From Ignavibacteria bacterium (lineage in GTDB: Bacteria; Bacteroidota; Ignavibacteria; Kapaibacteriales; Kapaibacteriaceae): 64,000 nucleotides of DNA. Below are positions 8,409-40,507 of this stretch, piece by piece (the first letter of the stretch is position 1; the number at the start of each line of letters is the position of its first letter). The translations under genes were made by a program, and so were the position numbers. Below the pieces are notes generated by a model, which was given only the letters and a program-made list of their open reading frames with translations, was not told the DNA's origin and did no database searches. The DNA lies in NCBI GenBank assembly GCA_013204605.1, contig JABMNI010000069.1, positions 1 to 64,000 on the forward strand, written 5' to 3'.

Positions 8409-10463
8409 TTATCGAACAATCGTCAAGATGGTTGACGAAGAGACACCAACACCATCAGATTTAATTACGTAGGCTCCAGGTGTAACACTAACGCCATCAG
8501 CATCTTTACCATTCCAGTTTACACTTAGAGTACCCTGAGTGGCATTTCCACTGAAGATGGTTGCTACAGATTTTCCAAATGTGTCATATACTTTAAGGGT
8601 CACAAGGGCACTGTTCGGAATTTCTACAGCTACAGAAACTTCACCCGCAGTTGGATTAGGGTAAACAGAAAGCCCGTTTCCTTGTTCCATATCCAAACCT
8701 TGAATTTTTGCGTTAGGCTGTTCCACTTCGTTGAATCTAATTTCAGAAACTTCGTACAATGACTTTTCAGGCATCGTTACATAAGCGACCGGCTGATCAG
8801 TTGCGAAAGATCCGCTACCAGTTACAACTGCAACATTCTCATTAGCCACGGCCGTTACAAATCCATCCGTTGGATTTACCGGAGTAATCTGAGAAATATT
8901 AGCGTCAGTACTAAACTTGAAACCAAAAGCTCTATTGTGGTTACCGTTCAGATATACTGGCACTCTAACCAATCCATTACCGATTGATGTTGGAGTTCCG
9001 AAATTGATATTGTCTGCCAATTCAATTGGAGCAACTTTTCCGAAATTCGGTCCAGTAGTATCATTATCATATACCCAAGGCAAATACGGAAGACGACCAG
9101 ATAAGTAACGCATAATCAACGCCGCATCATACTCAGTTACTTCATAGTAGATCTGATTAAGATTACTCAAATCCAACGCTCTACCATTAATTCCGTAGAG
9201 TCCTTCGCTTTCGTTTAACACACGTAAAACTTGCTTTCCAGTAGTACCATGAACATCTATCGCTCTTCTCCATTGGTCGATATCGATAGTTCTGCGCCAG
9301 ATAACAATTGCACCACTTCCATTCAATGAATCTGAACTGAAATCATTCTTAAGTTTTGAAAAGTAATATCGACCACTATGGTTAACGTCACCTTGGTAGG
9401 CTTGGCGTTTCCAAACTGAATCCAGTGGTTGCTTCATTACTATCGATTTAATAATTACTCTTGCATCATTAGCAGTAACGCGAATATTCTGAGCCGTACC
9501 ATCATGCCTTTGGTTACGAGCTGCCGAGGTGTCGGCATCCCCGTAACCCCATATATCAAATGTCAAGTACACGATTGACTGAAAACTGATAACTGCATCA
9601 CTTCGTCCACCAGACGGCTGCCATCTGAAAGTAGAATCTGTTCTGCTGTTTGCTCCCAACTGTGGACTGTAGATTAAACCATTCCAGAAGTCACTCAAGA
9701 ATCCAGGAAATCCTCCTGTACCTTTAATTCCAACCGTAGCACCTCTAGTAACGACAGTTGTGTTATTAGTATTGGGGTTACCGCCAACTTGTCCGTAAGC
9801 TAATTCAATATTACCTTGATAATTAGAATTAGCATCACTAGCGTACAGCCTAGCTTGGAAATTTGCAACGCTAGAATTGACACTAGCATCGTTGACATTC
9901 AAGTTTTTCCACTGAATAACTAATACAGGTCGAACAGGCTTAATTGTATCACACGATTCGTTTCTATCAACGTCCAATGCGTAAGAAATTTCGGAAGGCA
10001 TGTAGCCATTGATGACATCTAGAGACTTGCGAATCTTGTGATCACCCCAAAAAGGAGCAATTACGTTATCCGGATATGAAGACGAATTTATAAAAAGACC
10101 TTGAGCCTGCTTAGCAGGAAGCAACTTAGCTCCGTCAAATGTGATAAAACCGTTCACACTAACGTACATACCCGTGAATATTCGTCCGTTAAAGTTGAAT
10201 TGGAATCCACCAGGAAACGCAACAAATGCGTAACCATCATCCAAATCTGGTGCGTTAGTTGGAGGTAAAACGAACGAAGCGTTCGATATTACTCTCTTAG
10301 CAACTAGAGAAGCTGCGCATGCATCTAGATCTCTGTACGGGCGACCCACCAATAGTTGCGGCTGACGAAACTGATTAAAAATCTGTTGTGCCAATCCATC
10401 TACTGATCCGAATGCCACGGAACAGAGTACCACTGCTGTTGCAATGAATATCTGTCTTTTCAT
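8409..10463 (-). CDS. Secreted protein with FlgD-like/T9SS C-terminal domain and dockerin-like segment
   Basis: About 684 residues from the ATG at 10463, which has GGAG six bases upstream; an upstream in-frame ATG at 10487 lacks one. The signal peptide ends SVDGLA|QQ. Residues 60-270 hold a beta-sandwich with GFITFDG and FWGDHKI, as in nidogen-like surface domains. The segment GDVNHSGRYYFSK, near residue 360, resembles a dockerin-type calcium loop (DxNxxG). The end (SVYPNPTAGEVSVAVEIP ... VTLKVYDTFGKSVATIF ... DADGVSVTPGAYVIK) is a FlgD-Ig-like T9SS domain. It lies directly downstream of the giant beta-helix gene, with a hairpin between them. Confidence 0.8.
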   Translation of the reverse strand: MKRQIFIATAVVLCSVAFGSVDGLAQQIFNQFRQPQLLVGRPYRDLDACAASLVAKRVISNASFVLPPTNAPDLDDGYAFVAFPGGFQFNFNGRIFTGMYVSVNGFITFDGAKLLPAKQAQGLFINSSSYPDNVIAPFWGDHKIRKSLDVINGYMPSEISYALDVDRNESCDTIKPVRPVLVIQWKNLNVNDASVNSSVANFQARLYASDANSNYQGNIELAYGQVGGNPNTNNTTVVTRGATVGIKGTGGFPGFLSDFWNGLIYSPQLGANSRTDSTFRWQPSGGRSDAVISFQSIVYLTFDIWGYGDADTSAARNQRHDGTAQNIRVTANDARVIIKSIVMKQPLDSVWKRQAYQGDVNHSGRYYFSKLKNDFSSDSLNGSGAIVIWRRTIDIDQWRRAIDVHGTTGKQVLRVLNESEGLYGINGRALDLSNLNQIYYEVTEYDAALIMRYLSGRLPYLPWVYDNDTTGPNFGKVAPIELADNINFGTPTSIGNGLVRVPVYLNGNHNRAFGFKFSTDANISQITPVNPTDGFVTAVANENVAVVTGSGSFATDQPVAYVTMPEKSLYEVSEIRFNEVEQPNAKIQGLDMEQGNGLSVYPNPTAGEVSVAVEIPNSALVTLKVYDTFGKSVATIFSGNATQGTLSVNWNGKDADGVSVTPGAYVIKSDGVGVSSSTILTIVR

Positions 10464-10510
10464 AGATAACTCCATTATTTTCTTCATTTAATTTTCGTTG
10501 GTCGAAGCTG

Positions 10511-10537
10511 GTGGAAGCTGGAAATTCCAGCCTCCAC
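10511..10537. other. Strong intergenic hairpin between T9SS genes
   Basis: A 13-base stem with one mismatch (GTGGAAGCTGGAA / TTCCAGCCTCCAC) and a one-base spacer. It sits ten bases after the stop of the giant gene (minus strand). No T-run follows on that strand, so processing, mRNA stabilisation or partial attenuation is as likely as termination. On the plus strand it is followed by T-rich DNA. Confidence 0.6.
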
Positions 10538-10546
10538 TAACCATTT

Positions 10547-13500
10547 TTATTTTACAACTGATACTTGTTGAGTTACAGACTTCGAGCCGTCCGAAATTCT
10601 TACCGTGTACATTCCGTTAGAAACACCTGATGCGTTCCATTCTATCGAATACTGCCCAACACCGTACACCTGATTAGCAAGCGTGGCAACCTTTGTACCT
10701 ACTGAGTTATAAACTTCTACCGTAACTCGACTTGTTGCTGGTACGCTGAAAGCGATGTTTGTAGATGTTGCAAATGGATTTGGTGAAGTCTTGGTGATAG
10801 CTAAACCATCAGCAACCACAGGAACTTCATCATTTACATCAGTTGTGTAATCGTATACTATTATGAAACCACGAAGCGCGTCACGTATGATAATGATTGT
10901 ATCACACTCAGCACGTCCAGAATCATCATGATGCAAAATGTCAGCAGCTGAGCGTCCCTTACCAGTTTTCATATTGTAAGAGAAGTTCGCACCATTCGAG
11001 AAGTCATCACGTATATAATACGAACCAGGGTTCGTAGCGTCAACCGCTGGAATCTGACTCTTACACCATGTTAACGTCACAGGATAGTACGCTGAGCTTT
11101 GACTATTCTCGCCACCAGCTTGGAAGCGGGCACGGAATACCGACTCACCAGCTTGATTACTGAATGGATAGATGTTGCGTAGGATTCCATTCCGATTTGG
11201 AATAGTCCAACGTGCATCAAACACATCCTCTGGAGGAACATTAGGCAACTCATACTCACAATAATTAGAATCCAACATACCGTATGAGTTGAATTCGTCA
11301 CCGCGAGTAGCACGCTCTGATCCACCAAGACCAAATGTCAACAATTGGAATCCGCCTTGATAGTTTCTCACCGAAATATCTACCGTAAAGCGAGTCTCAG
11401 CTGAAACAGCAACTTTATAAGTCAAGGTGTCTTTAACGCCTTGCTTGTCAGTGACTTCAATCTGTATCGTAACCTTTCCATTCTCAACTGGGCCAGAGAA
11501 AGAAGTATTTGAGATCACGATTGTAGCTGTATCACTCATTGGACTACTCAATTTGTTTGGAGTAAATGTCCAAGTTCCACCGGCAGGCTTAATAACTGCG
11601 AACGTTAACTCTTCGTTAGAAGCCTGAGTACGACGAAGATCAATATCAGTGACTTTAATCGTGTCTGTGTATGGCTTATTAATATCAACACACTTAACTA
11701 TCGGCGAGGCCAATAAACGTGGGTTATGATTCACAGCATTAATCTTTAAGCTGACCGTTACAATATCCCACAATCCACCTGGATCCTGCACCAAAGCAGT
11801 AACCTGCACAGTTGTATCGCTGAATGGAACGTCTGTAACTCGTGGAGTGCCATAAAGCAAACCGCTGAACTCGTCGATCATCAACCACTTTGGAGTAGTC
11901 TTCTTTGACGCGTCGATGGCAATGAATCCTGATTCCCTAAAGTAAGGGTCAATATACATAGTATCATCTGGAGCATCAATGTAGATCAATTTGAATGTAT
12001 GATTTTGACCAAAGTTAGGATCGTAAACCCTAATTCTGCGATTAGAATCCAAAAGTGCCACGTTATAATCCGTGTCTTCAAGGGCGTCTTCCAAAGACAA
12101 CGTAGTAATTTTAGGTTGAACGTTTATAAACAACCTGCGAGTCAATGCGTTAATTCCGCCATGACCATCATTAACCACTATTGTCATCAACGTATCCGTA
12201 TTTAGGTCACCGTTAATCGGATTGCCCGGATTGATGTCATTTACAGGCTTCAATATTTGCAATGCTGTAGCAGCATCAATACGAATATTGATTTTACCTG
12301 ATGTTGTCAAATCTTGCGCAAATGGATCCGCTGTTTCAGCAGCGTTGTACTTGCGAAGATACTGGTTTGCCATCCAGATTGGACGCGCTGCTAGCAATTC
12401 ATCCAATGTAGTGTCACCTGGAGTTTCGTGAATCGACGTTGACAAGAAACCGTATGCAGTTTTTCCATAGCGGAAATCCCACTTACCAAATTGCTTGACA
12501 ACAAATCGACTGTCATCCACAGATGCCATGTCCTCAAACTCATCGTCAGTGTTTACATCGACAAGGAATCTTAATGAATCTGTAAGGTTAGCAACGAACT
12601 GAATATTTACGGTGTCGGCCTGACCCGCATTTGGACCAGAGGCATTGTAAATTTCATCTGTTATAGCATTAGGTTGTTGGAATCTTCTTCCCACGCGAGA
12701 CATAGTGTTCTTCATGCGAAGAGTATCAAGATAAACGCCATTCTCGTAAACATTCGAGTCTGTAGTAGTAGGATCCAAGACTATGGTTGTATCACCCTTC
12801 AACATTTCATTGAATGGCTGATTTCCAACTGCTCTATGAGCCCAAAGGAACCTTGGCATTGAATCAACAACGTGAATTTTAAACTTGTATGCAGTAGTAT
12901 CAAACCAGCCAAAGTTTACAGTATCCTGTTGTAAGAAGCGAGCATTTGTATTACTTGGGTCTCTTAAATTCAAGGCCAAAGCATTGTTGTGATATTCTTG
13001 TGCGTGGTAATACGATGGGTACAGGTAAATCCACTTGGAGATTTGCTGCTCTGACCAACCAGATTTACGCAAAGAATCAACCAACTCCACAGAAGGAGGA
13101 TAGTTTTTCGCAACTACTTCAACTTCTTCACCACCTGGAACGATGTAAGGATTAATTGGACGGCCACGTAGCATACGGTATCCGGTAGCACCCCACTTAG
13201 GATTTACGGCCGATGATGCGTACACTAGTGTATCACGCAACCAATAACGAAGAGCTGAATTAGGAGTCAAAATTGACCAGAAATAAGACAATTGTGAATT
13301 TAGTTTCGAATCCGTGATTACTCTTGGATCGTAAAACTTATTAGTATCTTTTGCAGTAATAGTAAAGATTGTATCGCGTTCACCGTTTCCGTAAGTAGAA
13401 GGCTCACTAAACCAGCTACCATTTCCGTCTGTCCTGCGCGATTGGGCAGCAGTGATAGGCGTATAGAGTCTGTTCTCCGTGATAAACACGCGATTACGGA

Positions 13501-16500
13501 ACGTTGGGTGCAGTTTTGTTGAAGTACCAAGAGTATCAGCCGCCCCTGTAAATACAGGAGGGTTGGTAGTATTACTAACAGTAAAGGTAAGCGAACCATT
13601 AATAGCATCAATTATGCCCTTTTTCCAAAGAGCAGTACGTGAAACTATCGTAACGCGGTCGCCTGCAATCACTGGAAGTGCGCGATAACGCTCGCCACCG
13701 AAGTAGGTTTCTTTTCCGCCATCCCCCGGCAATGTGTTCGACAATGGAAGTGAAGGACGATTACCTAGACGGAAGTTTGCTCCACCAAGTTCACCGTTTG
13801 CCGTAGAACCTGACCAGCGACGACCAGCAAAGGCACCTGAATCTTCACGAACTGCGTTGCGATTAAGGAACGACAACAAAGTTGCACCAGAACCATAAGT
13901 TGCTAGGCCTTCATAGGCACGACGAATGTTAGGATCACCACCGCGTGTTGAATCCGGTACTAATTCCACTCGTGCACGATATACAGTGTCTGTTACACCA
14001 ATCTGCTTCATGTTAACACGGATGAAATCTCCCGTGCGCTCATTTATTACGAAGTAGACCGACTCGTTGATGGCACGAATGTCATTGTTACTAATCTCAG
14101 ATGTCGCACTGTAGTCAGCACGAGCCTCTAAGAATAGCGGATAGCCAATTGGATGGGTACCAACAAACTCAGTTTGAACTTTAGCAATCACTGTATCCAC
14201 GTCTGCGTCGAACGGGTTACGGGTCATTCTCTTCACATACTTATTGAAGGAAGGAAAAGTGGAATTGCTAAACAATTTCATGGTTGGAGGAATACCAACT
14301 GCAAAGTCCTCAACAGGTGACATCCTTCTGTTAGAATAGTCAGCCGTTTTGATATCAGTACCTTTATCAAAGATGTCGTAGATACGACCTTCCATCAACA
14401 AAGTATCTGGAATCTGCCATGTTGGAATTGCTTTGTAAGTAATTCTCCATGTAGACTCAAATGGACCTTGATCGTTAGGATTAATAGAGTTTCTAACAAA
14501 ACCTAGATGTGTTTTTCCATTACCGGCAATAAAGAATGTTTCCTGAACTCTTTGGAAAGTTTGGTTAGCAGTGATAGGTAAAATAGTATTAACATTTACC
14601 TCTGTCTGACCCCAGTAGTTTCCACGAAGTGTATCAACACCACCAAAACCAATTCCTGTAGTTCCTGCCAACACACCTTTAGTGTCTTGAGCATCCGGCA
14701 AGCGGATTGTAAATCGGGCATCATTGTCGTAGATCGAGTTAGCAGCAGTACTGTAAGTCGTCCAAGGCAACGGTCCAACTACTTCACCGTAAAGAACTGC
14801 GCCAGCTAAATCAGAAGAAGCAGGGAATTCATTGTTAAACAATGGACCTTGAATCGTGTCATTTGAGCGGCCAGTTGTTGAAGTGGCTTTATTGTTTGTA
14901 ATCAGCGTGCGGGTTAGAGCAAGCTTAAGATCAAAATTATCAGAGTAGATAGCAGCACCTGAGTGAGCTACGTTTCCTTGAATACGTACACGGTCGAAGC
15001 CAAATGTGTCAACTCGAACGCGAACACTGTCGAGGATATAAAGTGCACCACCCAGACCAGTCCCATTTTCACGGAGTGTCGTACCAGGGTGCATAAACTT
15101 AATATCGCCTTCTTGTGTAGTACCACTTCCCTGACGAGCTGGGTTTGGATAAGCCATGTTGTCATAGAAACGAGTCAACATTCTTTCATCAGCTCCAGGA
15201 GCAGTAGTTCCAAACGTAAACACGTCGTTGCGAGGAGTATATCCTGTAGCCACACCTTGAGCGTTAAATGAAACGTCATCAAGATCTGTTACCATGAACC
15301 TTCTGCGTGTAAGTGTATCTGGGGTCACAACGGCAACAGCGCCACCGTTTCCATTCCATACTTTATTAGCACGGAATTCTACGCCTTTTACTACGTTCAG
15401 ATCAGCATTGATACTATACAGTCCACCACCACCGCGAACGATGCTCTTAAGTGAATCTGCAACGTCACCAACACGGTTGTTTACAAACTGAGCGCGAATA
15501 AAGCGCAGGTTACGACGCGAAATTGGCAACTCTGAAGGAAGCATAGCGGCAATACCGCCACCATTATATCCAGCAGTGTTATTTGACAATTCAACACCAT
15601 AGTTAGTACCATAAATCCATAATGGACCACTGGCTCCACCAGCACCGTACATAAACATGTTACGCTCTGTATGAATTGCTCCACCAGATGCAACAGCCTT
15701 GTTATCACGGAACTTAATGTTATAACCGTAGTTACGTGCATTAATTATTCCATCAGATCCACCAACGTATGGTGAAGGTACTGGATCACTGTTATTATTT
15801 GATACATAAACGGCACCACCTCTACCAGATGTATTTCCTAAGAAATGCGTAGGTGGGTTGTTATCCAATCCACCACGGATCTGCAATTGCATTGCCGTAG
15901 TTGAAGCATAAATGGCACCACCATGCGAATAAGTCGCATTAGCGTTTGCCAAATTTGCCGTACTTAGATTCGGAATGTAAGGAGCGGTGGTTTTATTTGT
16001 AGTAAACCTACCAGTAAGTACCAGACTAGTATTGTCACCCAGGTAGATAGCACCACCGCGAGCTCCGTTTGTTACTTGATTACCCGCTTGAGTGCTTGGC
16101 TGACGGTTTTCAGCATAGTTGCTGGTAAACTCCATAGTATCTTTACCTTGGAAATCGTTAATTCCAAGACCAATTGTCATTGGAGTACGACCCGAGATAT
16201 ATAGAGCACCACCAAAGGCGTCATTTTTACGAGAGCGGTCAATATTGGCGTGTACAGTTGCTGCACGGTCTGCATCAGTTACTACTCGAACTCCACCAAT
16301 ACGAACGGTGTCTACATCGGACAACAACACTCTGTTATTAATGAATCGAAGTTGACGAATACGTCCAAGGTAAACTGCTAAACGCGCATCATCAATTGAC
16401 TGACGATCAACGTCTGTTAAACTCGGCTCTGCGCCTGAGTCAAACAACCAATCCAAGGCTGTTAGTTGCTGATCATACGGTTGAGCCGTATTTGGATTAG

Positions 16501-17524
16501 TCAACCAAGAGTTTGTTTGAGCTGAATATTTTGGAAGAGCTGCCATTGTAGTAGAACTAACTACCGGATACAATTGCAAGCTGCTTCCCGCGAACTGGTC
16601 AACCGGAGCCTGCAAAATCTGAAGCGCGCCACCATGGTAGCGAGCTGTATTGTTTCGGAAGGTACAACCAACTAACCATGTACGTATCGAGAAAGTAGTG
16701 ATTGCTCCACCGCTACCATTTGTCGCACGTAAAAGGTTGTCGTTAGCTGAAGCTGCCTGAGCAGCTGAAAATTGAGTTCCACTTGAGTTTGCTAGGTACA
16801 CAGATTGATTATCAACCGTTGTGTCCTTGCGGAAGTTCAAGAAGTCAACGTCACGGAAAAATGCCGCACGAGCTCCAGGTAGCACAACTATGTGCCCCCA
16901 CTCGCGCGAGAAGTTGTTCACGTCACCAGCTATAAATGTAATCCTTGCTGGACGCACATTAATTGCTGTTCCAGCCTTTTCACGGAACCAAGGATTCAAA
17001 CGAATCGTCGAAATCACAGTACCTAGACTCAAGCGCGCAGCCATGTAAACCATGGCCTTGGCTGGAGTCAAATTCTGCAAATTCGGATCCGAACCCAAGT
17101 TAACGTTGAAAATTGTTCCGTACTTCGACGAATGTATCGTCGGTTCTGTCGCAATTGTCGACGTTAAGACCCCGGTTGCCCCAAAGTAGGCAGGGTCGTC
17201 GTAGCCTGTGTAAGGCGGAAACAAAGCGTTCGCAGCATTAGCAGTGTACGTTGCCGAAGCACGTCCATCTGCAATGATGCGTCCACCCGTAGAGTCAATT
17301 AACCGACCATTCGGTAAGAACTCTATACGTGTCCCAGGTTCTATGATAAGTGTACCGCCAATGGCATATGTGCCACTGATGCGATATACAGTATCTCGTA
17401 CGAATACTCGTACTGAACCAGGTGGAAGACTACCGCGAACGGATACATAGTCCTGTGCAAGAACTACTGAACACGCAGCGGTCAGTACAAGCAGCATGCT
17501 GCTCAATCGGAACCAACGTTGCAT
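10547..17524 (-). CDS. Giant Pmp-like beta-helix surface protein secreted by T9SS
   Basis: About 2325 residues. The ATG at 17524 (MQRWFRLSS) is preceded by GGAGG four bases upstream; an in-frame ATG at 17578 lacks a Shine-Dalgarno. The signal peptide is 23 residues, ending VVLA|Q. Residues about 40-950 are a right-handed beta-helix with at least ten GGA[I/L/V] turns (HGGALQI, FGGALYISG, RGGAIYLGD, HGGAIYAST, SGGAIHTER) alternating with FxxN motifs (FRNN, FTSN, FRDN, FVNN), as in Chlamydia polymorphic membrane proteins. Later come cadherin/dystroglycan-like domains (SGLLYGTPRVTDVPFSDTTV) and a module with YELPNVPPEDVFDARW. The last ~90 residues (SPNPFATSTNIAFSVP ... SNGMYTVRISDG) form the T9SS sorting domain. 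Probably a large adhesin or surface fibre (inference). Confidence 0.88.
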   Translation of the reverse strand: MQRWFRLSSMLLVLTAACSVVLAQDYVSVRGSLPPGSVRVFVRDTVYRISGTYAIGGTLIIEPGTRIEFLPNGRLIDSTGGRIIADGRASATYTANAANALFPPYTGYDDPAYFGATGVLTSTIATEPTIHSSKYGTIFNVNLGSDPNLQNLTPAKAMVYMAARLSLGTVISTIRLNPWFREKAGTAINVRPARITFIAGDVNNFSREWGHIVVLPGARAAFFRDVDFLNFRKDTTVDNQSVYLANSSGTQFSAAQAASANDNLLRATNGSGGAITTFSIRTWLVGCTFRNNTARYHGGALQILQAPVDQFAGSSLQLYPVVSSTTMAALPKYSAQTNSWLTNPNTAQPYDQQLTALDWLFDSGAEPSLTDVDRQSIDDARLAVYLGRIRQLRFINNRVLLSDVDTVRIGGVRVVTDADRAATVHANIDRSRKNDAFGGALYISGRTPMTIGLGINDFQGKDTMEFTSNYAENRQPSTQAGNQVTNGARGGAIYLGDNTSLVLTGRFTTNKTTAPYIPNLSTANLANANATYSHGGAIYASTTAMQLQIRGGLDNNPPTHFLGNTSGRGGAVYVSNNNSDPVPSPYVGGSDGIINARNYGYNIKFRDNKAVASGGAIHTERNMFMYGAGGASGPLWIYGTNYGVELSNNTAGYNGGGIAAMLPSELPISRRNLRFIRAQFVNNRVGDVADSLKSIVRGGGGLYSINADLNVVKGVEFRANKVWNGNGGAVAVVTPDTLTRRRFMVTDLDDVSFNAQGVATGYTPRNDVFTFGTTAPGADERMLTRFYDNMAYPNPARQGSGTTQEGDIKFMHPGTTLRENGTGLGGALYILDSVRVRVDTFGFDRVRIQGNVAHSGAAIYSDNFDLKLALTRTLITNNKATSTTGRSNDTIQGPLFNNEFPASSDLAGAVLYGEVVGPLPWTTYSTAANSIYDNDARFTIRLPDAQDTKGVLAGTTGIGFGGVDTLRGNYWGQTEVNVNTILPITANQTFQRVQETFFIAGNGKTHLGFVRNSINPNDQGPFESTWRITYKAIPTWQIPDTLLMEGRIYDIFDKGTDIKTADYSNRRMSPVEDFAVGIPPTMKLFSNSTFPSFNKYVKRMTRNPFDADVDTVIAKVQTEFVGTHPIGYPLFLEARADYSATSEISNNDIRAINESVYFVINERTGDFIRVNMKQIGVTDTVYRARVELVPDSTRGGDPNIRRAYEGLATYGSGATLLSFLNRNAVREDSGAFAGRRWSGSTANGELGGANFRLGNRPSLPLSNTLPGDGGKETYFGGERYRALPVIAGDRVTIVSRTALWKKGIIDAINGSLTFTVSNTTNPPVFTGAADTLGTSTKLHPTFRNRVFITENRLYTPITAAQSRRTDGNGSWFSEPSTYGNGERDTIFTITAKDTNKFYDPRVITDSKLNSQLSYFWSILTPNSALRYWLRDTLVYASSAVNPKWGATGYRMLRGRPINPYIVPGGEEVEVVAKNYPPSVELVDSLRKSGWSEQQISKWIYLYPSYYHAQEYHNNALALNLRDPSNTNARFLQQDTVNFGWFDTTAYKFKIHVVDSMPRFLWAHRAVGNQPFNEMLKGDTTIVLDPTTTDSNVYENGVYLDTLRMKNTMSRVGRRFQQPNAITDEIYNASGPNAGQADTVNIQFVANLTDSLRFLVDVNTDDEFEDMASVDDSRFVVKQFGKWDFRYGKTAYGFLSTSIHETPGDTTLDELLAARPIWMANQYLRKYNAAETADPFAQDLTTSGKINIRIDAATALQILKPVNDINPGNPINGDLNTDTLMTIVVNDGHGGINALTRRLFINVQPKITTLSLEDALEDTDYNVALLDSNRRIRVYDPNFGQNHTFKLIYIDAPDDTMYIDPYFRESGFIAIDASKKTTPKWLMIDEFSGLLYGTPRVTDVPFSDTTVQVTALVQDPGGLWDIVTVSLKINAVNHNPRLLASPIVKCVDINKPYTDTIKVTDIDLRRTQASNEELTFAVIKPAGGTWTFTPNKLSSPMSDTATIVISNTSFSGPVENGKVTIQIEVTDKQGVKDTLTYKVAVSAETRFTVDISVRNYQGGFQLLTFGLGGSERATRGDEFNSYGMLDSNYCEYELPNVPPEDVFDARWTIPNRNGILRNIYPFSNQAGESVFRARFQAGGENSQSSAYYPVTLTWCKSQIPAVDATNPGSYYIRDDFSNGANFSYNMKTGKGRSAADILHHDDSGRAECDTIIIIRDALRGFIIVYDYTTDVNDEVPVVADGLAITKTSPNPFATSTNIAFSVPATSRVTVEVYNSVGTKVATLANQVYGVGQYSIEWNASGVSNGMYTVRISDGSKSVTQQVSVVK

Positions 17525-17589
17525 ACAACCTCCAGTTGTCAAAACCATATGCTTTATTTTATTCAAACTATTTTTCATTTTCAGAATTC

Positions 17590-18637: not shown

Positions 18638-20788
18638 CTAAAATGACATTGTTTTGCGCACTGCTAACACAATGTCTTCCACAGACAATAGTGTGGCTTT
18701 CTCCAAACTTTTGGCAAAACCGACTGGGGTAAACTTCGAACCCACCCTAGCCACAGGCGCATCTAGATATCGGAAAAGCTCTTCGTTAATGCACGAAGCC
18801 ACCTCTCCACCAAACCCGCCAATCACTTTGTCTTCATGTGCTACCACTACCCTGCTCGTTTGCTTAACGTGTTCAAAGACCATCTCTTTATCCCAAGGTG
18901 CCAGTGATCGTAAGTCTATTACCGCTACCGAGATACCTTCTTGCTGCAAGAGCTCGGCTGCTTGCAAACTCCAGTGGACGGCGGTTCCATACGACACTAT
19001 AGTTACGTTTTTCCCAGATCTGCGCACTTTAGCCCTTCCAAATGGAATTATGTAGTCTTCCGGCGGCATCGGCGTAGAGGTTGGTCTGTAATTGTATAGA
19101 AATTTAGGTTCGAGGTACATAGTAGTGCCCCTTGACCTGATGGCATTTCGCATAAGTCCAACGGCATCGTCGGCAAAAGCCGGAATCACAACCCGCAAGC
19201 CCGGTAATGTGGTAAAGGTCCCTTCAAGGTTCTGTGAATGGTACAGCCCACCTTGAATATACCCGCCCGATGCCAATCGAATTACCATGGCTGGGCTAAA
19301 CTGACCCCTAGTCCGCCAATAGTCATGTGTACATTCAATGAGTTGTTCCATTGCTGGCCAAAAATAATCGGCAAATTCGGCCCCCTCTACAACTACCCGG
19401 ATATCTTCCCGATATCTAGTCATTCCGTTCGCTGTTCCAACTATGTAGTCTTCAGCAATTGGAGCGTTAAACACCCGATCGTTGCCAAATTCATCCAAAA
19501 GACCCTTGCAAACGTTAAAAATCCCCTGTTTTTTGTGCGATGCAACATCCTGACCAAACAGAAATGTGTTGGGATTTCTTCTGAATTCTTCAATTAAAGC
19601 GCCGTTTATGCCCTCTCGAAACGTAACCAGGGGAGCATCGGCCGGTGGTGTCCATGAAAACTCACTCTGATTGTCAAGGCCAACCACTGGTTCCGGGATT
19701 ACAAACTGGCTGTACGTCGAAGGGTCTGGGTCGGGAAGGGGCTCAACTGCATCCGCAGCTGCAAAAATTGCTACTTTATTGGCTTCCTCAATAGTAGCCA
19801 GTTGCTCGTCAGTTGCCATTCCCGCAGCTATCAAAGAAGCTCTCATCCTAGGAAGCGGATCCCTGTGCTTCATTTCTTCTATGTCAGATTTTTCGCGATA
19901 AAGCTCCTGATTGTCTGAATTAGAGTGCGATCCAATACGGTCACAATCCGCGTGTACCATGGCAGGACCCATTCCCGACAACGCATAATCTCTGGCTTGC
20001 TCCATCACTTTGAAGGAATCCATTGGATTCCTTCCGTCACAATAAAATATCTTGAGATTGGTAAAGCCGCTAAAGTTTTCCGCTACTATGGGATTGGTCG
20101 TTTGCTCAGATAATGGTACAGAAATGCCGTACTTGTTGTTCTGAATGACAAAAACCAAGGGCAATTTCTCACGGTCAGCTCCATTAACCGACTCGTAATA
20201 GTATCCCTCTGATGTCGTAGAATCGCCTGTCGAACAGTAAACCACTTCGTCGCCAGCATATTTTTTGATGGCTCTGGCAGTTCCCGCTGCCTGCTGGCAG
20301 TGGTTACCCGTACACGAAGACGAATTTTCAAGATTAATGGAGATTTTAGCGAAGTGGTTGCTCATGTGCCTTCCGCCTCCGGCTACATCAGCATCCTTAC
20401 TAAGCCCGTTAGCAATAATTTCTTCAACCGTAACGCCGGCCGCTATCGAGGTTAGCATATCTCGGTAGTACGGAAATAAGTAGTCTTTACCCCCGCGAAA
20501 CACCTTCCCCAACGCCAACTGAATTCCATCGTGACCGGCAAAGGGTGCATGGTATGACCAGCCCTTCGCCATTTTTAGGTAATTGGCAGCCTTTTCATCC
20601 AGCCTTCTTGCCAAATGTTGAACCTGATACCATTCTAGTAGGGTCTCCTTATCGAAATCCTGCAAATCAAACAGCTCCACCGTTGAGCTCACCTGCAACG
20701 CGGTTCCGTTTTTAATTTCTTTACCACCATCAACGTTTGTCGTCTTAGGTGACGTCTTATCTGAATTCTTCGACTTGGCCTTAGCCAT
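18638..20788 (-). CDS. 2-oxoisovalerate dehydrogenase-type E1, fused alpha and beta subunits
   Basis: 716 residues: alpha part about 40-370, beta part about 385-716. Alpha holds the ThDP region GDSTTSEGYYYESVNGA ... VIQNNKYGIS; the Ser after GD, instead of Gly, is what I recall as usual in Bacteroidota fused E1s. Beta holds FREGINGALIEEF, FGQDVASHKKQGIFNV, RLASGGYIQGG and AHEDKVIGGFGGEVAS. It decarboxylates branched-chain 2-oxoacids and passes the acyl group to E2 lipoyl; no E2 or E3 gene is in the window. It is the last gene of the minus-strand operon, 15 bases after the branched-chain aminotransferase, which supports branched-chain substrates over pyruvate. Confidence 0.85.
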   Translation of the reverse strand: MAKAKSKNSDKTSPKTTNVDGGKEIKNGTALQVSSTVELFDLQDFDKETLLEWYQVQHLARRLDEKAANYLKMAKGWSYHAPFAGHDGIQLALGKVFRGGKDYLFPYYRDMLTSIAAGVTVEEIIANGLSKDADVAGGGRHMSNHFAKISINLENSSSCTGNHCQQAAGTARAIKKYAGDEVVYCSTGDSTTSEGYYYESVNGADREKLPLVFVIQNNKYGISVPLSEQTTNPIVAENFSGFTNLKIFYCDGRNPMDSFKVMEQARDYALSGMGPAMVHADCDRIGSHSNSDNQELYREKSDIEEMKHRDPLPRMRASLIAAGMATDEQLATIEEANKVAIFAAADAVEPLPDPDPSTYSQFVIPEPVVGLDNQSEFSWTPPADAPLVTFREGINGALIEEFRRNPNTFLFGQDVASHKKQGIFNVCKGLLDEFGNDRVFNAPIAEDYIVGTANGMTRYREDIRVVVEGAEFADYFWPAMEQLIECTHDYWRTRGQFSPAMVIRLASGGYIQGGLYHSQNLEGTFTTLPGLRVVIPAFADDAVGLMRNAIRSRGTTMYLEPKFLYNYRPTSTPMPPEDYIIPFGRAKVRRSGKNVTIVSYGTAVHWSLQAAELLQQEGISVAVIDLRSLAPWDKEMVFEHVKQTSRVVVAHEDKVIGGFGGEVASCINEELFRYLDAPVARVGSKFTPVGFAKSLEKATLLSVEDIVLAVRKTMSF

Positions 20789-20803
20789 GTTACGCTCCGT
20801 TTT

Positions 20804-21763
20804 CTATGCTTTCGTTTTCTTGTTTTTTACTGAAGTCTTAGTTTCTGGCACAAATGTCAACCACCCATATGGATCTTCGCCCATTACCGTGATTTTCTGA
20901 AATGCCTTCTGAATTTTCTTTGTTAGGGGGCCTACCCTGCCGCGACCCACAGCAATCCTATCCACGCTTGTAACAGGGGTTATCTCTACAGCAGTACCTG
21001 TTAGGAACATTTCATCAGCAACATACAAACTCGCTCTTGAGATATTCTCAACAACAACCGGAATACCCAGTTGCCTAGCCAAGGTAACCACGGTTTCACG
21101 TGTTATTCCAGGTAGGAGAGAGCTGGATGCCGGTGGAGTTACCAATACTCCATCTATAACCACAAAAACGTTCTCGCCGCTGCCTTCGGCAACATTGCCA
21201 TAAGCATCTAAACAAATTCCTTCGGCGTATCCATTTTCGATGGCTTCCATCTTAACTAACTGCGAGTTCATGTAATTGCCGCCAGCCTTTGCAATTGATG
21301 GCAAGGAATTCGGTGTAATCCGGTCCCATGATGAAACACAAACATCCACGCCTTTTTCTACAGCGTCTTCGCCCAAATATCCACCCCAAGCCCACGATGC
21401 TATATAAACCTCTAACGGACAGCGCAAGGCATACACTCCCATGTCGCCAAAACCGCGCATAGCAAACGGACGGATATAACAGGTTTTAAGATCATTTACT
21501 TGCAAAAGCTTAATTACGGCATCTGACAGCTCGTCAATCCGATAAGGAAGTACAGTTCTATATACCTTTAGCGAGTTCTGAAACCGCTGCATATGCTCCT
21601 GAAGCCTGAAAACAGCGGTTCCCTTAGCCGTTTCATAAGCACGAATTCCTTCAAACCATGAGGTTCCGTAATGCAATGCGTGCGACAATACATGTACCGA
21701 CGCCTTATGAAAGGGAATAAATTCCCCATTTCTCCAAATTTTATTTGTCGGTTCTATTGGCAT
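20804..21763 (-). CDS. ilvE: Branched-chain amino acid aminotransferase (class IV)
   Basis: 319 residues, full length. Motifs: KIWRNGEFIPFHKASVHVLS, HYGTSWFEGIRAYET, YIRPFAMRG, and SIAKAGGNYMNSQLVKMEA with the PLP Schiff-base lysine. GYAEGICLD followed by EGSGENVFVV and DEMFLTGTAVEITPV complete the class IV signature. It interconverts Val, Leu and Ile with their 2-oxoacids using glutamate/2-oxoglutarate in the cytoplasm. It lies 15 bases before the E1 gene and 15 after gatB on the minus strand. Placement beside E1 and the IcmF parts suggests a catabolic or branched-chain acyl-CoA supply role. Confidence 0.92.
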   Translation of the reverse strand: MPIEPTNKIWRNGEFIPFHKASVHVLSHALHYGTSWFEGIRAYETAKGTAVFRLQEHMQRFQNSLKVYRTVLPYRIDELSDAVIKLLQVNDLKTCYIRPFAMRGFGDMGVYALRCPLEVYIASWAWGGYLGEDAVEKGVDVCVSSWDRITPNSLPSIAKAGGNYMNSQLVKMEAIENGYAEGICLDAYGNVAEGSGENVFVVIDGVLVTPPASSSLLPGITRETVVTLARQLGIPVVVENISRASLYVADEMFLTGTAVEITPVTSVDRIAVGRGRVGPLTKKIQKAFQKITVMGEDPYGWLTFVPETKTSVKNKKTKA

Positions 21764-33169: not shown

Positions 33170-36100
33170 TTATCGTACTACCATCCTTGACACATATAGT
33201 TTGCCAATCAATGTGTACGTTGTGTTGGGGTGTTTAAGAGTTATGTACGGGGCTGTTGATGTAATAACGCCCCAGCCATTTCCTGCGCCGGCAAGGTGAG
33301 TACCCTCTCCAAGATATTCGTCCTGTTCATCTATTGGAAGAAGTCCCTGTATTAAACGAGAACCAAGGGCTATAACATCCGGAAGTACTGTGCGCCAATC
33401 TACTTCGCCCTTTTTATCCTCAACTTGGTACGATTCTACTCGTTCCCTTACTTCATCCAAAAGGTCGTATACATTGTTTACCAGACAGTCGTTCTTGTCC
33501 TTGCAATCTTCATCGTAACTAACAATGTGGATATATGCTAGATCCTTATAGTCCATCCAGTATGGTTCCACCCACAACAATTTCTCGGAATATTCCTGCG
33601 GTCCGTTCTTGTCTGAGTGGGGTATTGTACACTCTTCAACCGGCGTTCCTTGCTGCTCCCGACAATCAGGAATTCGCTTGAATCCTATATCAGTATGATG
33701 AGCTTTTTCCACTGCGAGATTTGCTCCGTACACTACTTGATATGTTTCGCCATAGTTGGGAAGAATGAAGTCCAAGTCACCATCATACGCATAGTTGATT
33801 GACTTCAAATGGTAACCCACTCCAGGCAGTTCCATAGTTGCGAGCGCAAAAGTTGATTTTGTTAAAAGGGGCTTGCCGGTTAATGATTTTATCGATCTAA
33901 GGCAGGTTAACTCGAAATTTCCGAAGTGTAGTGCCTGTAATCTTGGTGAGGTTCTTGGATCGCATATTGCAAACTCTACAGTAGTAATAGGGGAACCATC
34001 TGCCGGATAATAATTGATGTGCGCACCATCGAATGATTCAACCTTGAAATCTAGTCCTCGCAGCGCTGGGTCGGTTACTAGTATGTTGTTTACAGACTCA
34101 GCCGTCATCCCACCTTCTATTATTGTTCGCACATCAATAGGAGCGGTGAACTTTACTTTTACATGCGTTCCACGACGTGGAATGTATTGGAGGTGCCTTC
34201 CACTGCGAGGTTCATCGGCCAACTCGTCATAGTATATAGCAGGATCGAGCCATCGCTCAGTAAAAAACGAATTAGCCCTGTCTTCACCGTTTTTGATTCG
34301 AACGCGCAATGCAATTGATTCGATTCCGAATTGTTGCTCGAAACACCCGCGCACTCGAATTTCCGGAATGTCCTCGTCTGCACCGTTGCAAGATGACATA
34401 GTAAACTTGGCCAATTGTGTTTGTACAACCAACGAATAAATCGATTCGGTTCCTTGCTTGCCACCTCCATCTGGAATCACATAGTTAACAGGTTGACTGA
34501 AGTACTTCCAAACTTCACCTCGCAGTGTTGAACCTGAACACAACAGTCGCAACTCATCTCCGCACTGAAACATCTGTCCGCCAAATGCAATGTTTTTATC
34601 TCTACACGAATACTGATTGTAAGTTTTCCAACTTGTTGCACCGGAACTTAATTGTACTTTTTTTTGAACGGTGATTTTCGATTCCGGATGGGGCACTTGG
34701 TCTTTTGCAATGTCGTTTGGATCATCCGATGCTAATAACACTCTATCAATTCGCAACGCAATCTGCTTACGACGACCAAAAAACGTTACCACATTTTCTG
34801 GATTAGTCATATCCGCTTCAACGCAATATTCGCCCACCCCTAAATCGAAATTCATTGATTTACCAGTAGCCGAAACTGAATAACCAATTATCTCCCAACA
34901 TGGCTGAGCTTTCACACAAAGTGCTCGTTTCCCTGTTTGCACATCTTCGTAATTTTTTTCAGTAGTGAAACCCACAGCATCGTTAATGTCGAACAATTTG
35001 TCGGCATCCACATCGCTCAGCTGACCCCGCAGACGGAAGTTTTCGTACGGCGTTAATGGTATTACTGGACCAAAGTTTGCCGTATTTAATTGTAATTGAA
35101 CCGATAAGGCGTTGGGTCCGAACATCGTTTGCGCATTAACAATGATGGTCGCGGCCGGGTTGCCGTTATTACCACCCTGTGTTGCACTCCAAGACGTTAA
35201 CGTACTTCCTGAAGCTGGTATGGCCATCAGTCTATACTCCGGATAATCATCCGTGATATACAGCGTGTCCTTTTGTTCTATGGTCTTTATCAACCTACCT
35301 TCTCCACTGTACACTTGCACAGCCCCCTTTCCATTAACTGAAATCTGGGTTGTGATAGTATCGATTCGTTCAATAATCGCATAAATCGGGATCTCCGCCA
35401 TTAGCAATTCACAGCTAATTGTTACATGGGCAAATGCGGTTGATATGGACTGTTGGAACGCGGGACTTTCCCACCGGACAAATTGCCAGCGGTTGCCAAG
35501 GTCTTCGGGGCATGATAGGGTAAGGGGCTCTGTGTTTGTGGTTACCACGTTGTTGGATGATAGCTGTTCCGAAATGTATTCGGGCACTTCTCTACCATCT
35601 GCAGAGACAGCGGTAACTACTACCTTTCCTGCATTCCTGACCGGAACCATCCACTCTTTTCTGTCTAAGGGATTGCCGGTAACTATACTTAGATCAAGAA
35701 CTACATGGATGCTTTTCCCAACCTCCCATGAATGTAGTGGGAGTATCGACAGCGCATTCTGAATTGGGTTGGGGATCAACTGCACATCAGCTGGTTGCCA
35801 ATTCTGATTGTCCATGGGTGACGTTTGTTCTACTCTTAATGCCCGAACAATGTCTGCCGGTGTTAGAGTAGCACCGCTGAACTGAAAGTTGATCGGCTGG
35901 GTACACGTAAATACACGAAACGAATCGAGGCTGCAAGTTTCAATTTGTGGAACAAGCGATGTGGTAGTGAAATAGAAATCTAGTTTCGACGCTGGAATGG
36001 GTCCGTTAGGTGACTGCAAGAAGATATCGGAAACAATACATCGGTACCTTGTATCGGCGAGAAGTCCAAATGGTTTAAATCGGACCGTTCTTACATCAGC

Positions 36101-36412
36101 AAATTCATACTTCCCGTATATCGTTTTTCTATACCATTTCGATGGATCGGTATCACGAGATTCGGCTTCCGAAATTAATGTGATGGTTGGCCGATGGGCG
36201 GTGTAGCCAAGATCATTTGCATCGGGGTATGAAGCGGTTACACTGGGTGGGATAATGGGCATTATTGCCCGTAAAACAATGGACGCATCGGTGCCAACGT
36301 TTGTCTGGTTTTCAACAGGGAATACCGCGTAGATATTTGCCTGCTGAGCTTGAATAATTGTTCGCGCTCCGAATAACATCAAAAACAGCGCGACGAAAAG
36401 TGGCCTGCACAT
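33170..36412 (-). CDS. Large secreted Ig-like (SbsA/Big_5-type) protein
   Basis: About 1080 residues. The ATG at 36412 has GGAGG five bases upstream; the frame is also open from a TTG at 36424. The signal peptide ends RTIIQA|QQ. Two Big_5-like units near the N-terminus (VFPVENQTNVGTDASIVLRA, FKPFGLLADTRYRCIV) and another near residue 740 (GTHVKVKFTAPIDVRTIIEG) resemble bacterial Ig-like surface domains. The C-terminus (TTYTLIGKLYVSRMVVR) does not look like a standard T9SS domain, so its export route is unclear. Its stop abuts the frame of the next gene (TAAATG). Function unknown. Confidence 0.7.
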   Translation of the reverse strand: MCRPLFVALFLMLFGARTIIQAQQANIYAVFPVENQTNVGTDASIVLRAIMPIIPPSVTASYPDANDLGYTAHRPTITLISEAESRDTDPSKWYRKTIYGKYEFADVRTVRFKPFGLLADTRYRCIVSDIFLQSPNGPIPASKLDFYFTTTSLVPQIETCSLDSFRVFTCTQPINFQFSGATLTPADIVRALRVEQTSPMDNQNWQPADVQLIPNPIQNALSILPLHSWEVGKSIHVVLDLSIVTGNPLDRKEWMVPVRNAGKVVVTAVSADGREVPEYISEQLSSNNVVTTNTEPLTLSCPEDLGNRWQFVRWESPAFQQSISTAFAHVTISCELLMAEIPIYAIIERIDTITTQISVNGKGAVQVYSGEGRLIKTIEQKDTLYITDDYPEYRLMAIPASGSTLTSWSATQGGNNGNPAATIIVNAQTMFGPNALSVQLQLNTANFGPVIPLTPYENFRLRGQLSDVDADKLFDINDAVGFTTEKNYEDVQTGKRALCVKAQPCWEIIGYSVSATGKSMNFDLGVGEYCVEADMTNPENVVTFFGRRKQIALRIDRVLLASDDPNDIAKDQVPHPESKITVQKKVQLSSGATSWKTYNQYSCRDKNIAFGGQMFQCGDELRLLCSGSTLRGEVWKYFSQPVNYVIPDGGGKQGTESIYSLVVQTQLAKFTMSSCNGADEDIPEIRVRGCFEQQFGIESIALRVRIKNGEDRANSFFTERWLDPAIYYDELADEPRSGRHLQYIPRRGTHVKVKFTAPIDVRTIIEGGMTAESVNNILVTDPALRGLDFKVESFDGAHINYYPADGSPITTVEFAICDPRTSPRLQALHFGNFELTCLRSIKSLTGKPLLTKSTFALATMELPGVGYHLKSINYAYDGDLDFILPNYGETYQVVYGANLAVEKAHHTDIGFKRIPDCREQQGTPVEECTIPHSDKNGPQEYSEKLLWVEPYWMDYKDLAYIHIVSYDEDCKDKNDCLVNNVYDLLDEVRERVESYQVEDKKGEVDWRTVLPDVIALGSRLIQGLLPIDEQDEYLGEGTHLAGAGNGWGVITSTAPYITLKHPNTTYTLIGKLYVSRMVVR

Positions 36413-36437
36413 AGCAACCTCCAAAAAAAGTGTGGTG

Positions 36438-36462
36438 AGTAAAACCGCAGAAAGAATGCGGT
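36438..36462 (-). terminator. Possible terminator upstream of the 33170-36412 gene
   Basis: On the minus strand ACCGCA-TTCTTTC-TGCGGT is followed by TTTT. It lies about 125 bases beyond the frame-restored end of the phosphatase gene and 26 bases before the next start, so it could end the cyclase/phosphatase transcript. The stem is only six base pairs. Confidence 0.4.
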
Positions 36463-36486
36463 GTACTTGCCGTGCTATGCCGACAT

Positions 36487-36545
36487 AAAAACGTGACTAT
36501 TTATGTGAAAATATTTATGATTTTCTATGTAAAAATATTTACGTC
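36487..36545. repeat. AT-rich direct repeats upstream of the 33170-36412 gene
   Basis: Two similar segments (TATGTGAAAATATTTATG near 36505, TATGTAAAAATATTTACG near 36534) recur about 27 bases apart. Each is a near-palindrome around AATATT. The inner GTAAAxATATTTAC of the second closely matches the centre of the palindrome at 63877-63898. They may be sites for a common regulator or simply AT-rich spacer. Confidence 0.4.
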
Positions 36546-36586
36546 CTTCCTGTTGAAATTATTAACCTCTGATTAAGTGTTTGACA

Positions 36587-36699
36587 CTACATCTTGTCTC
36601 TGTTCTTTACTGAGATTGTTTGATAGGTTTCTAAATCTATAGCGGTGAGAAACCCAAAGCCCCCTAAATTTTTATAAACACAGCCGGTATCAATAATTA
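36587..36699 (-). pseudogene. Out-of-frame C-terminal remnant of the metallophosphatase
   Basis: Reading on from the A6 run at 36700-36705 in the -1 frame (equivalent to adding one A) gives IIIDTGCVYKNLGGF, then GFLTAIDLETYQTIS, to a TAG at 36587-36589. IDTGCVY plus a following G-x-L-x-A-x-D-L is the conserved closing segment of PP1/PP2A-like bacterial metallophosphatases. The current frame stops at TAA just before it. The stretch also carries one copy of the dispersed AGCCCCCTA motif. Confidence 0.85.
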
Positions 36700-37254
36700 T
36701 TTTTTGTCGGAATCGATGCGTTGCTTCATGTTATCAATTGTAGTTGGAGTGTGACCACAAACAAGACGTTTATTTTTTGTTTCGGAAATGTCTGATTCTA
36801 GCCGCAACCACATAAGCGCATTGAAGTCTAGGTGAGGTGTGGAATGATGTGAGTTGAAGGATGCGTGAACACAAATACTCTTGTCCTCCTCGTAATACAT
36901 TTCCATTGTGTCGATGTAGTCGCAATACTCCACGGGAATTTCTGCGTGCGAATCGCAACGGAAGCTCATGAGCGTTTGAATGGCGCCGCTTTGAAGGTGG
37001 TGTAACTCCTGGCTTGCGTCTAGTCTGCCACGAACCAACAAATCATCGTGATTGCCACGCAGAACCGTGGTGTGATGTCCGTCTAAGCTAAGTTGATGCA
37101 GGTAGTCCAAAACTCCCTTTGAGTCTGGCCCTCTATCAATGTAGTCACCCAAAAACACAACGTGATCAGTTTTTGCTAACCCAATTTTCTCCTCGACCAA
37201 ACATCGTAATGTTAGCAAACAGCCGTGTACATCACCGATGGCAAACGAGCTCAT
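36697..37254 (-). CDS. Metallophosphatase (PPP family), truncated by an A6 frameshift
   Basis: 185 residues as read. The PPP motifs are present: AIGDVHG (10), FLGDYIDRGPDSKGVL (34), VLRGNHDDL (65) and VCGHTPT (165). They coordinate two metals for Ser/Thr-phosphoprotein or dinucleotide phosphatase activity. The conserved end with IDTGCVY is missing from this frame and lies immediately downstream, one base out of frame after six A residues (see 36587-36699). Its ATG overlaps the stop of the upstream glutaminyl cyclase by four bases (ATGA), so translation is coupled. It may be a sequencing error, a true loss, a phase switch, or a -1 frameshift product. Confidence 0.85.
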   Translation of the reverse strand: MSSFAIGDVHGCLLTLRCLVEEKIGLAKTDHVVFLGDYIDRGPDSKGVLDYLHQLSLDGHHTTVLRGNHDDLLVRGRLDASQELHHLQSGAIQTLMSFRCDSHAEIPVEYCDYIDTMEMYYEEDKSICVHASFNSHHSTPHLDFNALMWLRLESDISETKNKRLVCGHTPTTIDNMKQRIDSDKK

Positions 37255-38069
37255 TCCATTACGCTAATCTGATATATATGCGGCCAATTTTTTCCCGTCA
37301 CGTATATCGCCTTTGTTTTTGTGTTGTAGGCAATTCCGTTTAACACGTCGGTGTTTGCCGTTCGCTCTGAATCATCTAACAATCCGGTCAGGTCTACCAC
37401 CGACTTCACAATTCCGGTGCGAGGATCTATTCGAACTATGTTGTTGGTCCGCCAAACATTTGCCCAAATTTCGCCTTCTATCCACTCGAGTTCATTCAGG
37501 TGGTTGCACGGCAGACCGTTTAGCATTACTCCCACGGATCCTAACATGTGTCCGTCGGTTGCATCGCGCTGTGTAATAACGTGCGTTCCGTTGCTCATGT
37601 ATAATGTAGTTCCATCTGTCGTTAAACCCCACCCTTCACCTGCGTACAGAAACTGTCCAATTTTTTCCAGCTTCTTGTCATCAAAAATCATAGTGAGTTG
37701 ATTCAACCAACTCAGCACAAAAACCTTTCCATCAACAACGGCTAGACCCTCTCCAAAAATTCTCGCTTCAAGCGGCTGAAGCGTTAAAATTTTTCCCGTT
37801 GCAACTTCAACTCTACGAACAGAAGATGTTCCATATCCACCCGTGCTTTCGTAAAAAACTCCGTTGTGAATTTGAAGTCCTTGCGTAAATGCCTTTGTGT
37901 TGTGCGGAAGCACGCGTTCCACCTTGTACGACAGAATTTTTGCTGTAAGGGGCTTTGTGGGAGCTTCCACTTCTAACTTTACCGGTGTAAGTTTTGCTGC
38001 TTCCTGTTGGCATCCTACTGCTACCAAAACAACAAGTGCTGCGCAAAGAATGTTCGTGAGGTTTTTCAT
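37251..38069 (-). CDS. Glutaminyl-peptide cyclotransferase lipoprotein
   Basis: 272 residues. The lipobox is VAVG|C at about residue 20. The beta-propeller body has VLPHNTKAFTQGLQIHNGVFYESTGGYGTS, here split as AFTQGLQIHNGVFYEST and GGYGTSSVRRV, typical of plant-type glutamine cyclotransferases, plus LEWIEGEIWANVW and VLNGIAYNTKTKAIYVTGK. It cyclises N-terminal Gln to pyroglutamate in the periplasm. Most predicted signal-peptidase I products in this window begin with Gln, so they are its likely substrates; the enzyme is essential in some Bacteroidota. It is coupled to the downstream phosphatase. Confidence 0.9.
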   Translation of the reverse strand: MKNLTNILCAALVVLVAVGCQQEAAKLTPVKLEVEAPTKPLTAKILSYKVERVLPHNTKAFTQGLQIHNGVFYESTGGYGTSSVRRVEVATGKILTLQPLEARIFGEGLAVVDGKVFVLSWLNQLTMIFDDKKLEKIGQFLYAGEGWGLTTDGTTLYMSNGTHVITQRDATDGHMLGSVGVMLNGLPCNHLNELEWIEGEIWANVWRTNNIVRIDPRTGIVKSVVDLTGLLDDSERTANTDVLNGIAYNTKTKAIYVTGKNWPHIYQISVME

Positions 38070-39393: not shown

Positions 39394-40032
39394 ATGGCAA
39401 TCAAAAAACCAAAATGGTATGTAGTGTGGACCGGGCACAGTCCAGGGCTATACTCTTCGTGGGAAAAGTGCAAAGATCAAGTTGATGGCTTTCCTGGTGC
39501 TAAGTACAAGGCGTACGATACACTTACACAGGCAAAAGCGGCTATGGAATCAGGTATTCCAGCTTCGTTAATGCGTAAAACAGCCGCCGAAAGACTGGCC
39601 GAAAAGAAGCCCAGAAGGGGCAGGGGACCGGTTGTTCCCTCGGTTTCTGTGGATGCTGCATGCAACATGACCACCGGCGAAATGGAGTATAGAGGCGTGG
39701 ATACCGCCACGGGAACCGAACTTTTCCGCATGGGTCCATTCTCCGATTCCACAAATAATATAGGCGAATTCCTGGCCGTTGTTCACGGACTAGGAATGCT
39801 GGCCCGCCAGGAGAGTACAATTCCCGTGTATACGGATTCGCGCACGGCCATGGCCTGGGTAAAACAGCGCACCGCTAAAACCACTATAAAGCGTACGAGA
39901 AAGAATACCGACGTTTTTGCGCTTATGGAGCGAGCCCAAGAATGGCTTCGAGCAAATGATTACCCTAATCGAGTTTCGAAATGGGAAACGGATAAATGGG
40001 GTGAAAACCCAGCAGACTTTGGACGCAAGTAA
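39394..40032 (+). CDS. rnhA: Ribonuclease HI with N-terminal viroplasmin (Cauli_VI) domain
   Basis: 212 residues. Residues 1-50 (KWYVVWTGHSPGLYSSWEKC, YKAYDTLTQAKAAM) form the hybrid-binding viroplasmin domain. Residues 75-212 form the RNase H fold with acidic residues in SVDAACNMTTGE, NIGEFLAVVHGL and YTDSRTAMAW. It cleaves RNA in RNA:DNA hybrids such as Okazaki primers and R-loops. A 147-base AT-rich gap precedes it. A TATTTTTG box lies just before the ATG, but no -33 partner is visible. The stop is close to or overlaps the start of dut. Confidence 0.9.
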   Translation: MAIKKPKWYVVWTGHSPGLYSSWEKCKDQVDGFPGAKYKAYDTLTQAKAAMESGIPASLMRKTAAERLAEKKPRRGRGPVVPSVSVDAACNMTTGEMEYRGVDTATGTELFRMGPFSDSTNNIGEFLAVVHGLGMLARQESTIPVYTDSRTAMAWVKQRTAKTTIKRTRKNTDVFALMERAQEWLRANDYPNRVSKWETDKWGENPADFGRK

Positions 40033-40045
40033 TAATCCCGCAACA

Positions 40046-40507
40046 TTGCAGAACGTAAATGTTGTTTCGGTAGATATAAACGTTCTTCCCCATGGCGCCC
40101 ACCTTCCTTTGCCCGCGCCGGCCACTTCGGGCTCGGCTGGCATGGACGTTTTTGCCGCAATCAGTGAGCCCCTTGTGCTTGTTGCTGGCGGAATAACTCG
40201 TGTGCCTACCGGAATTGCTATTGCCCTTCCCGCCGGTTTTGAGTGTCAAGTTCGCTCCCGCAGTGGCCTTGCCGCAAAAAATGGAGTGTTCGCTTTAAAT
40301 GCACCCGGAACTGTCGACAGCGATTATCGAGGCGAAATTCAGATTATTCTAGCAAACTTTTCTGCCGAAAATTATACCATCGAACCCGGTTCAAGAATTG
40401 CCCAATTAGTTGTTGCCGCCTACTCAGCCGTAGCCTGGAACAGCGTAGACTCGCTTGATTTAACTGAAAGGGGCGATGGGGGATTTGGTAGCACCGGAGG
40501 ACACTGA
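40046..40507 (+). CDS. dut: dUTP diphosphatase
   Basis: About 153 residues from a TTG at 40046. The frame is also open upstream to ATGs at 39956 and 39917 inside rnhA, but nothing before VDINVLPHGAHLPLPAPAT looks like dUTPase. Trimeric dUTPase motifs: SGSAGMDVFA, RSRSGLAAKNG, NAPGTVDSDYRGE, PGSRIAQLVV and the C-terminal RGDGGFGSTG lid. It hydrolyses dUTP to dUMP and pyrophosphate, protecting DNA from uracil. The stop is followed two bases later by rpiB. Confidence 0.9.
   Translation: MQNVNVVSVDINVLPHGAHLPLPAPATSGSAGMDVFAAISEPLVLVAGGITRVPTGIAIALPAGFECQVRSRSGLAAKNGVFALNAPGTVDSDYRGEIQIILANFSAENYTIEPGSRIAQLVVAAYSAVAWNSVDSLDLTERGDGGFGSTGGH

Follow-up and report, generated by a model that had tools for sequence, protein, structure and literature searches.

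The question raised by this locus is whether a gene that stops one base out of frame with its own C-terminus has been disrupted, or whether the interruption is put to use. The window (the whole stretch of DNA that was analyzed, 64,000 nucleotides of an Ignavibacteria bacterium contig) contains on the minus strand an open reading frame of 185 amino acids, from ATG to TAA (36697..37254), assigned to a PPP-type metallophosphatase on the basis of its Pfam match (PF00149, Metallophos; E = 7.8e-15, residues 5-172) and of its invariant columns. At its 3' end the strand reads ...ATC GAT TCC GAC AAA AAA TAA, and the place of the frame break, identified from the sequence and from the in-frame counterpart in relatives, is the A6 run (AAA AAA; 36700..36705, minus strand) directly ahead of the premature TAA (36697..36699, minus strand). 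Read in the -1 frame from 36700, the same strand encodes 37 further residues (IIIDTGCVYKNLGGFGFLTAIDLETYQTISVKNRDKM), including IDTGCVY and the peptide NLGGFGFLTAIDLETYQTISVK, followed by a TAG at 36589-36587; both the coordinates and the translation of this remnant (36587..36700), recognized by homology to relatives, agree with the original prediction. The break sits inside a 90-kb contig, away from the contig ends. The frequency of the 9-mer AAAAAATAA in the window was unremarkable (2 observed, 2.3 expected). A second copy of AAAAAATAA, 73 bases upstream, together with the near-repeat TTCCGA(AA)CAAAAAATAA, was considered as a template for the change and rejected, given that codon-shuffled genes matched themselves as strongly in 74 of 200 trials.

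The catalytic part of the enzyme lies entirely upstream of the break. The motifs GDVHG, GDYIDRG, GNHD, VHA and GHTP were all found intact within the interrupted frame, in agreement with the metal-binding pattern of PPP-type metallophosphatases (GDxHG, GDxxDRG, GNHE/D, H, GH), and the same holds for the invariant residues D8, H10, D37, N68, H130 and H168, which we take to be the six expected metal ligands of the family. The IDTGCVY motif of the tail, previously described as family-defining, was indeed conserved, but it does not define the enzyme, since the metal-binding motifs are all upstream and intact. No NCBIfam equivalog cut-off was reached by the phosphatase, with scores far below them, and no substrate was assigned. 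What falls out of frame in the window is the complete set of C-terminal beta-strands that follows GHTP in intact relatives. In one of these (L037, 38% identical; predicted with a pLDDT of 91) three strands were predicted after GHTP (E192-194, E209-215 and E219-224), and the tail also bears a conserved Asp. The predicted fold of this relative matched bacterial PPP-type metallophosphatases (Foldseek E = 5.6e-12 to 3e-8), among them lambda-phosphatase (1g5b), the phosphatase domain of bacterial PnkP (4j6o), ApaH (9ojd) and Rhizobiales-like phosphatase 2 (5vjv). The window gene shares the motifs of these enzymes and differs from them in having its C-terminal strands out of frame.

The gene stands in a conserved neighborhood on the minus strand. 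Upstream, a glutamine cyclotransferase (Glu_cyclase_2; 37251..38069; Pfam E = 2.4e-86) overlaps the phosphatase start by ATGA, and downstream lies a frame from the open reading frame list (33170..36424) for a large protein of 1084 amino acids, with no Pfam family match and no assigned function, which is also the neighbor at loci L003-L006. The order glutamine cyclotransferase, phosphatase, large protein (33170-38069 in the window) was kept at these loci, which belong to two other genera of the family. Elsewhere in the window, two predicted plus-strand frames (39394-40032 and 39917-40507) overlap by 116 bases, and the true start of the latter is probably further downstream than listed.

The out-of-frame tail retains the character of coding sequence. 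It was 46% identical over 37 amino acids to the C-terminus of the phosphatases at L003, L004 and L005 (E = 8e-5 to 6e-4), and the junction was exact, RIDSDKK+IIIDTG aligning without gaps to RIDSGRKIILDSG of L003 (RIDSGRK-IILDSG). Across eleven other long genes of the window, stops were absent from only 4% of the 37-codon stretches read in the -1 frame; given this and the identity to relatives, the open frame and its homology are more than would be expected by chance. Mean identity to 16 relatives was 0.37 for the tail and 0.40 for the body; values so close imply that the constraint on the body applied to the tail as well until very recently, if it does not still do so in the real organism, and that decay has had no time to set in. 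The earlier observation that the remnant is undecayed thus held, the tail being open across 37 codons and about as similar to relatives as the body (mean 37% versus 40% identity). This lack of decay is suited equally to an error, a recent mutation and recoding, and does not discriminate among them.

The comparison with relatives was more informative with respect to how widely the break is shared. The phosphatase was matched in 55 of the 123 genomes of the order (presence called at E <= 1e-15), and the window copy was the only one broken within the enzyme; the sole other flagged stop, in genome G074, falls past the normal end of the protein (...NID-stop-stop). The four nearest copies run straight through the corresponding position (AAA ATT ATT CTT, AAG ATC ATC GTC or similar, e.g. 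GGA CGG AAA ATT ATT), and the nearest relatives do not retain an A-run at the position of the break. AT-rich relatives had longer in-frame A-runs in the same region, up to A8. Since the other copies are intact and read through, neither a conserved short form nor a conserved shift site was found in any of the other 54 gene-bearing genomes of the order; a short form shared by relatives had been named at the outset as an outcome contrary to the original prediction, and it did not emerge. In a scan of contigs for nearer relatives only matches of 32-41% identity were obtained, and the searches yielded no further genome from the genus.

A break in a single genome, an undecayed remnant and intact orthologs, the features expected of a lesion at a homopolymer, were thus all observed, and a one-base lesion of this ordinary kind, whether genuine or an artefact, explains all the observations and is very probably the correct reading. 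The A-run near the 3' end of the phosphatase is one base shorter in this single genome than the frame of all the relatives needs, so that the TAA follows immediately and the final 37 residues fall out of frame. The predicted product would be a protein of 185 residues with the metal ligands and without the three final beta-sandwich strands. As three predicted strands would be removed, even though the six ligands are spared, this short product is probably misfolded, unstable or inactive. The frequency of indels climbs with the length of homonucleotide runs, from 3 to 8 bases (PMC3812077), and A/T tracts in bacteria can mutate at high frequency (PMC2831843). Homopolymer frameshift pseudogenes and disrupted alleles in draft genomes show the same one-base break, single-genome occurrence, undecayed remnant and intact relatives, and no difference from them was identified.

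Three rival explanations would put the interruption to use. That the 185-residue protein is functional and its tail dispensable is extremely unlikely: GHTP and the full set of expected metal ligands do lie within the short frame, most of which was predicted confidently (mean pLDDT 88, a value that drew on an alignment of intact homologs and tells little about stability), but residues 173-177 and 180-185 fell below a pLDDT of 50, the missing tail carries the three strands and the conserved Asp of the intact relative, and the short form was absent from every other genome with the gene. A phase switch, in which frequent lengthening and shortening of the A-run would leave only some of the cells producing the enzyme, is very improbable as well. 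Reversible switching by A/T tracts is possible (PMC2831843) and the tail is intact, as a switch would have it; yet a run of six is short and far from rare (1.05 Mb of the genome contains 935 A/T runs of exactly this length), such tracts are found preferentially toward gene 5' ends (PMC2831843) whereas the A6 is near the 3' end of its gene, the run was not kept at the break position in the nearest relatives, and a predicted cytoplasmic phosphatase is not a typical contingency gene.

The remaining rival is a utilized -1 recoding event, in which ribosomes would stall at the TAA while tRNA-Lys occupies the P site and slip back one base on the A-run, or RNA polymerase would add an A, yielding some full-length enzyme; this we consider very unlikely, although slightly less so than the phase switch. 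Besides the intact -1 tail, the AAA before the stop would let tRNA-Lys re-pair one base back, Z_ZZN being the minimal -1 motif (PMC5009743), and the second AAA could in principle support such a minimal slip. A tRNA-Lys with the UUU anticodon was found, and in a laboratory system even runs of only 4 bases were bypassed (PMC3812077). Slippage at A-runs can rescue some full-length protein, so that live recoding may occur here, a point against a simple lesion. The canonical -1 sites of bacteria, however, are A_AAA_AAG and, less prone to shift in E. coli, A_AAA_AAA (PMC5009743), and the window site, C_AAA_AAA_TAA, does not fit the slippery heptamer X_XXY_YYZ: at C_AAA_AAA the first Lys tRNA would meet CAA once slipped. 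No unusual stimulatory RNA structure was found by folding 161 and 79 bases around or after the site in a model without pseudoknots (z = 0.57 and 0.32), and a candidate hairpin was rejected on the basis of these scores; an upstream Shine-Dalgarno-like stimulator was not seen by eye, and the arrangement occurs in no relative. Programmed -1 frameshifting at A_AAA_AAR, as in dnaX, magnesium chelatase and insertion sequence elements, shares the A-run and the -1 continuation with the window gene, which differs in its hexamer and in lacking both stimulators and conservation. In another genome of the comparison (G004:C1, about 998600-998900; L220), an insertion-sequence transposase breaks frame at a canonical A_AAA_AAA (GCA AAA AAA TGG), a site that the window gene does not have. 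It is very doubtful that this lineage relies on P-site slippage at AAA-TAA, or on transcriptional slippage on the A6, to produce the phosphatase in a short and a full-length version; were it so, the stop directly after the A-run would set the amount of full-length enzyme. Of the three explanations that had been offered for the break, an indel (an error or a recent mutation) is favored by the intact copies elsewhere, the presence of other lesions, a tail free of decay and the absence of any conserved or canonical shift site or RNA stimulator, while no positive evidence was obtained for a phase switch or for programmed -1 frameshifting.

Other lesions were surveyed in 1.05 of the 2.69 Mb of the genome against the open reading frames of two genomes of the same family and other loci, with about 539 kb covered. 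At the start of contig C14 (L125, 191-1705), three lesions were found within 1.7 kb in two neighboring conserved genes, named here from motif reading: a TAG nonsense codon in a cyclic-nucleotide-domain-like gene (191-835) and two single-base frame breaks in a gene of the metallo-beta-lactamase fold (884-1705). Either the contig end is of poor quality or the two genes are fresh pseudogenes. A single TAA (C36:17409; L247) was detected in a histidine-kinase-like gene, likewise named from motif reading, 52% identical to an intact relative (SLL-stop-ALPHEYRTP), and a decayed transposase was located at the end of C4. In G004 and G008 (458 and 132 kb covered, respectively) the same frame-break scan gave nothing beyond insertion-sequence cases and a single weak partial match, and on this comparison the assembly seems richer in lesions than its relatives. 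Several in-frame stops returned by the scan were discarded as antisense shadows, gene fusions or upstream extensions, and the apparent frame breaks at C14:25433-26496, C6:35879-37367 and 10284-17251 of the window were traced to adjacent genes, to fusions in the relative or to antisense shadows. Within the window, an apparent frame break at 20556-21328 was an opposite-strand match. A minus-strand frame of 2343 amino acids (10547-17578) was matched on its opposite strand, which is full of stops, by a 2338-codon open frame of G008 (998 bits, 30% identity), probably as the antisense shadow of a large repetitive protein.

With respect to the origin of the one-base lesion, the assembly itself offers some indications. 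Contig C18 ends in 58 consecutive G (L129, 8252-8309), which looks like a two-colour Illumina poly-G artefact; a run of 1803 N, either a scaffold gap or sequence that was withheld, was also noted in the middle of C3 (L193, about 63491-65293). Illumina rarely miscounts an A6, which weakens the case for a consensus error, and if the 58-G run points to two-colour Illumina data, a miscount of the A6 in the middle of a contig becomes less likely. Polymerase slippage at the run, giving a recent mutation or a minority allele that entered the consensus, would then have close to an even chance of being the cause and a consensus error somewhat under an even chance, so that the two possibilities stand roughly in balance.

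As no relative shares it, the break is an ordinary event. Its meaning is mainly one of annotation hygiene: the phosphatase is best annotated with a note that its frame is interrupted, and the genome handled as one that carries several such lesions.
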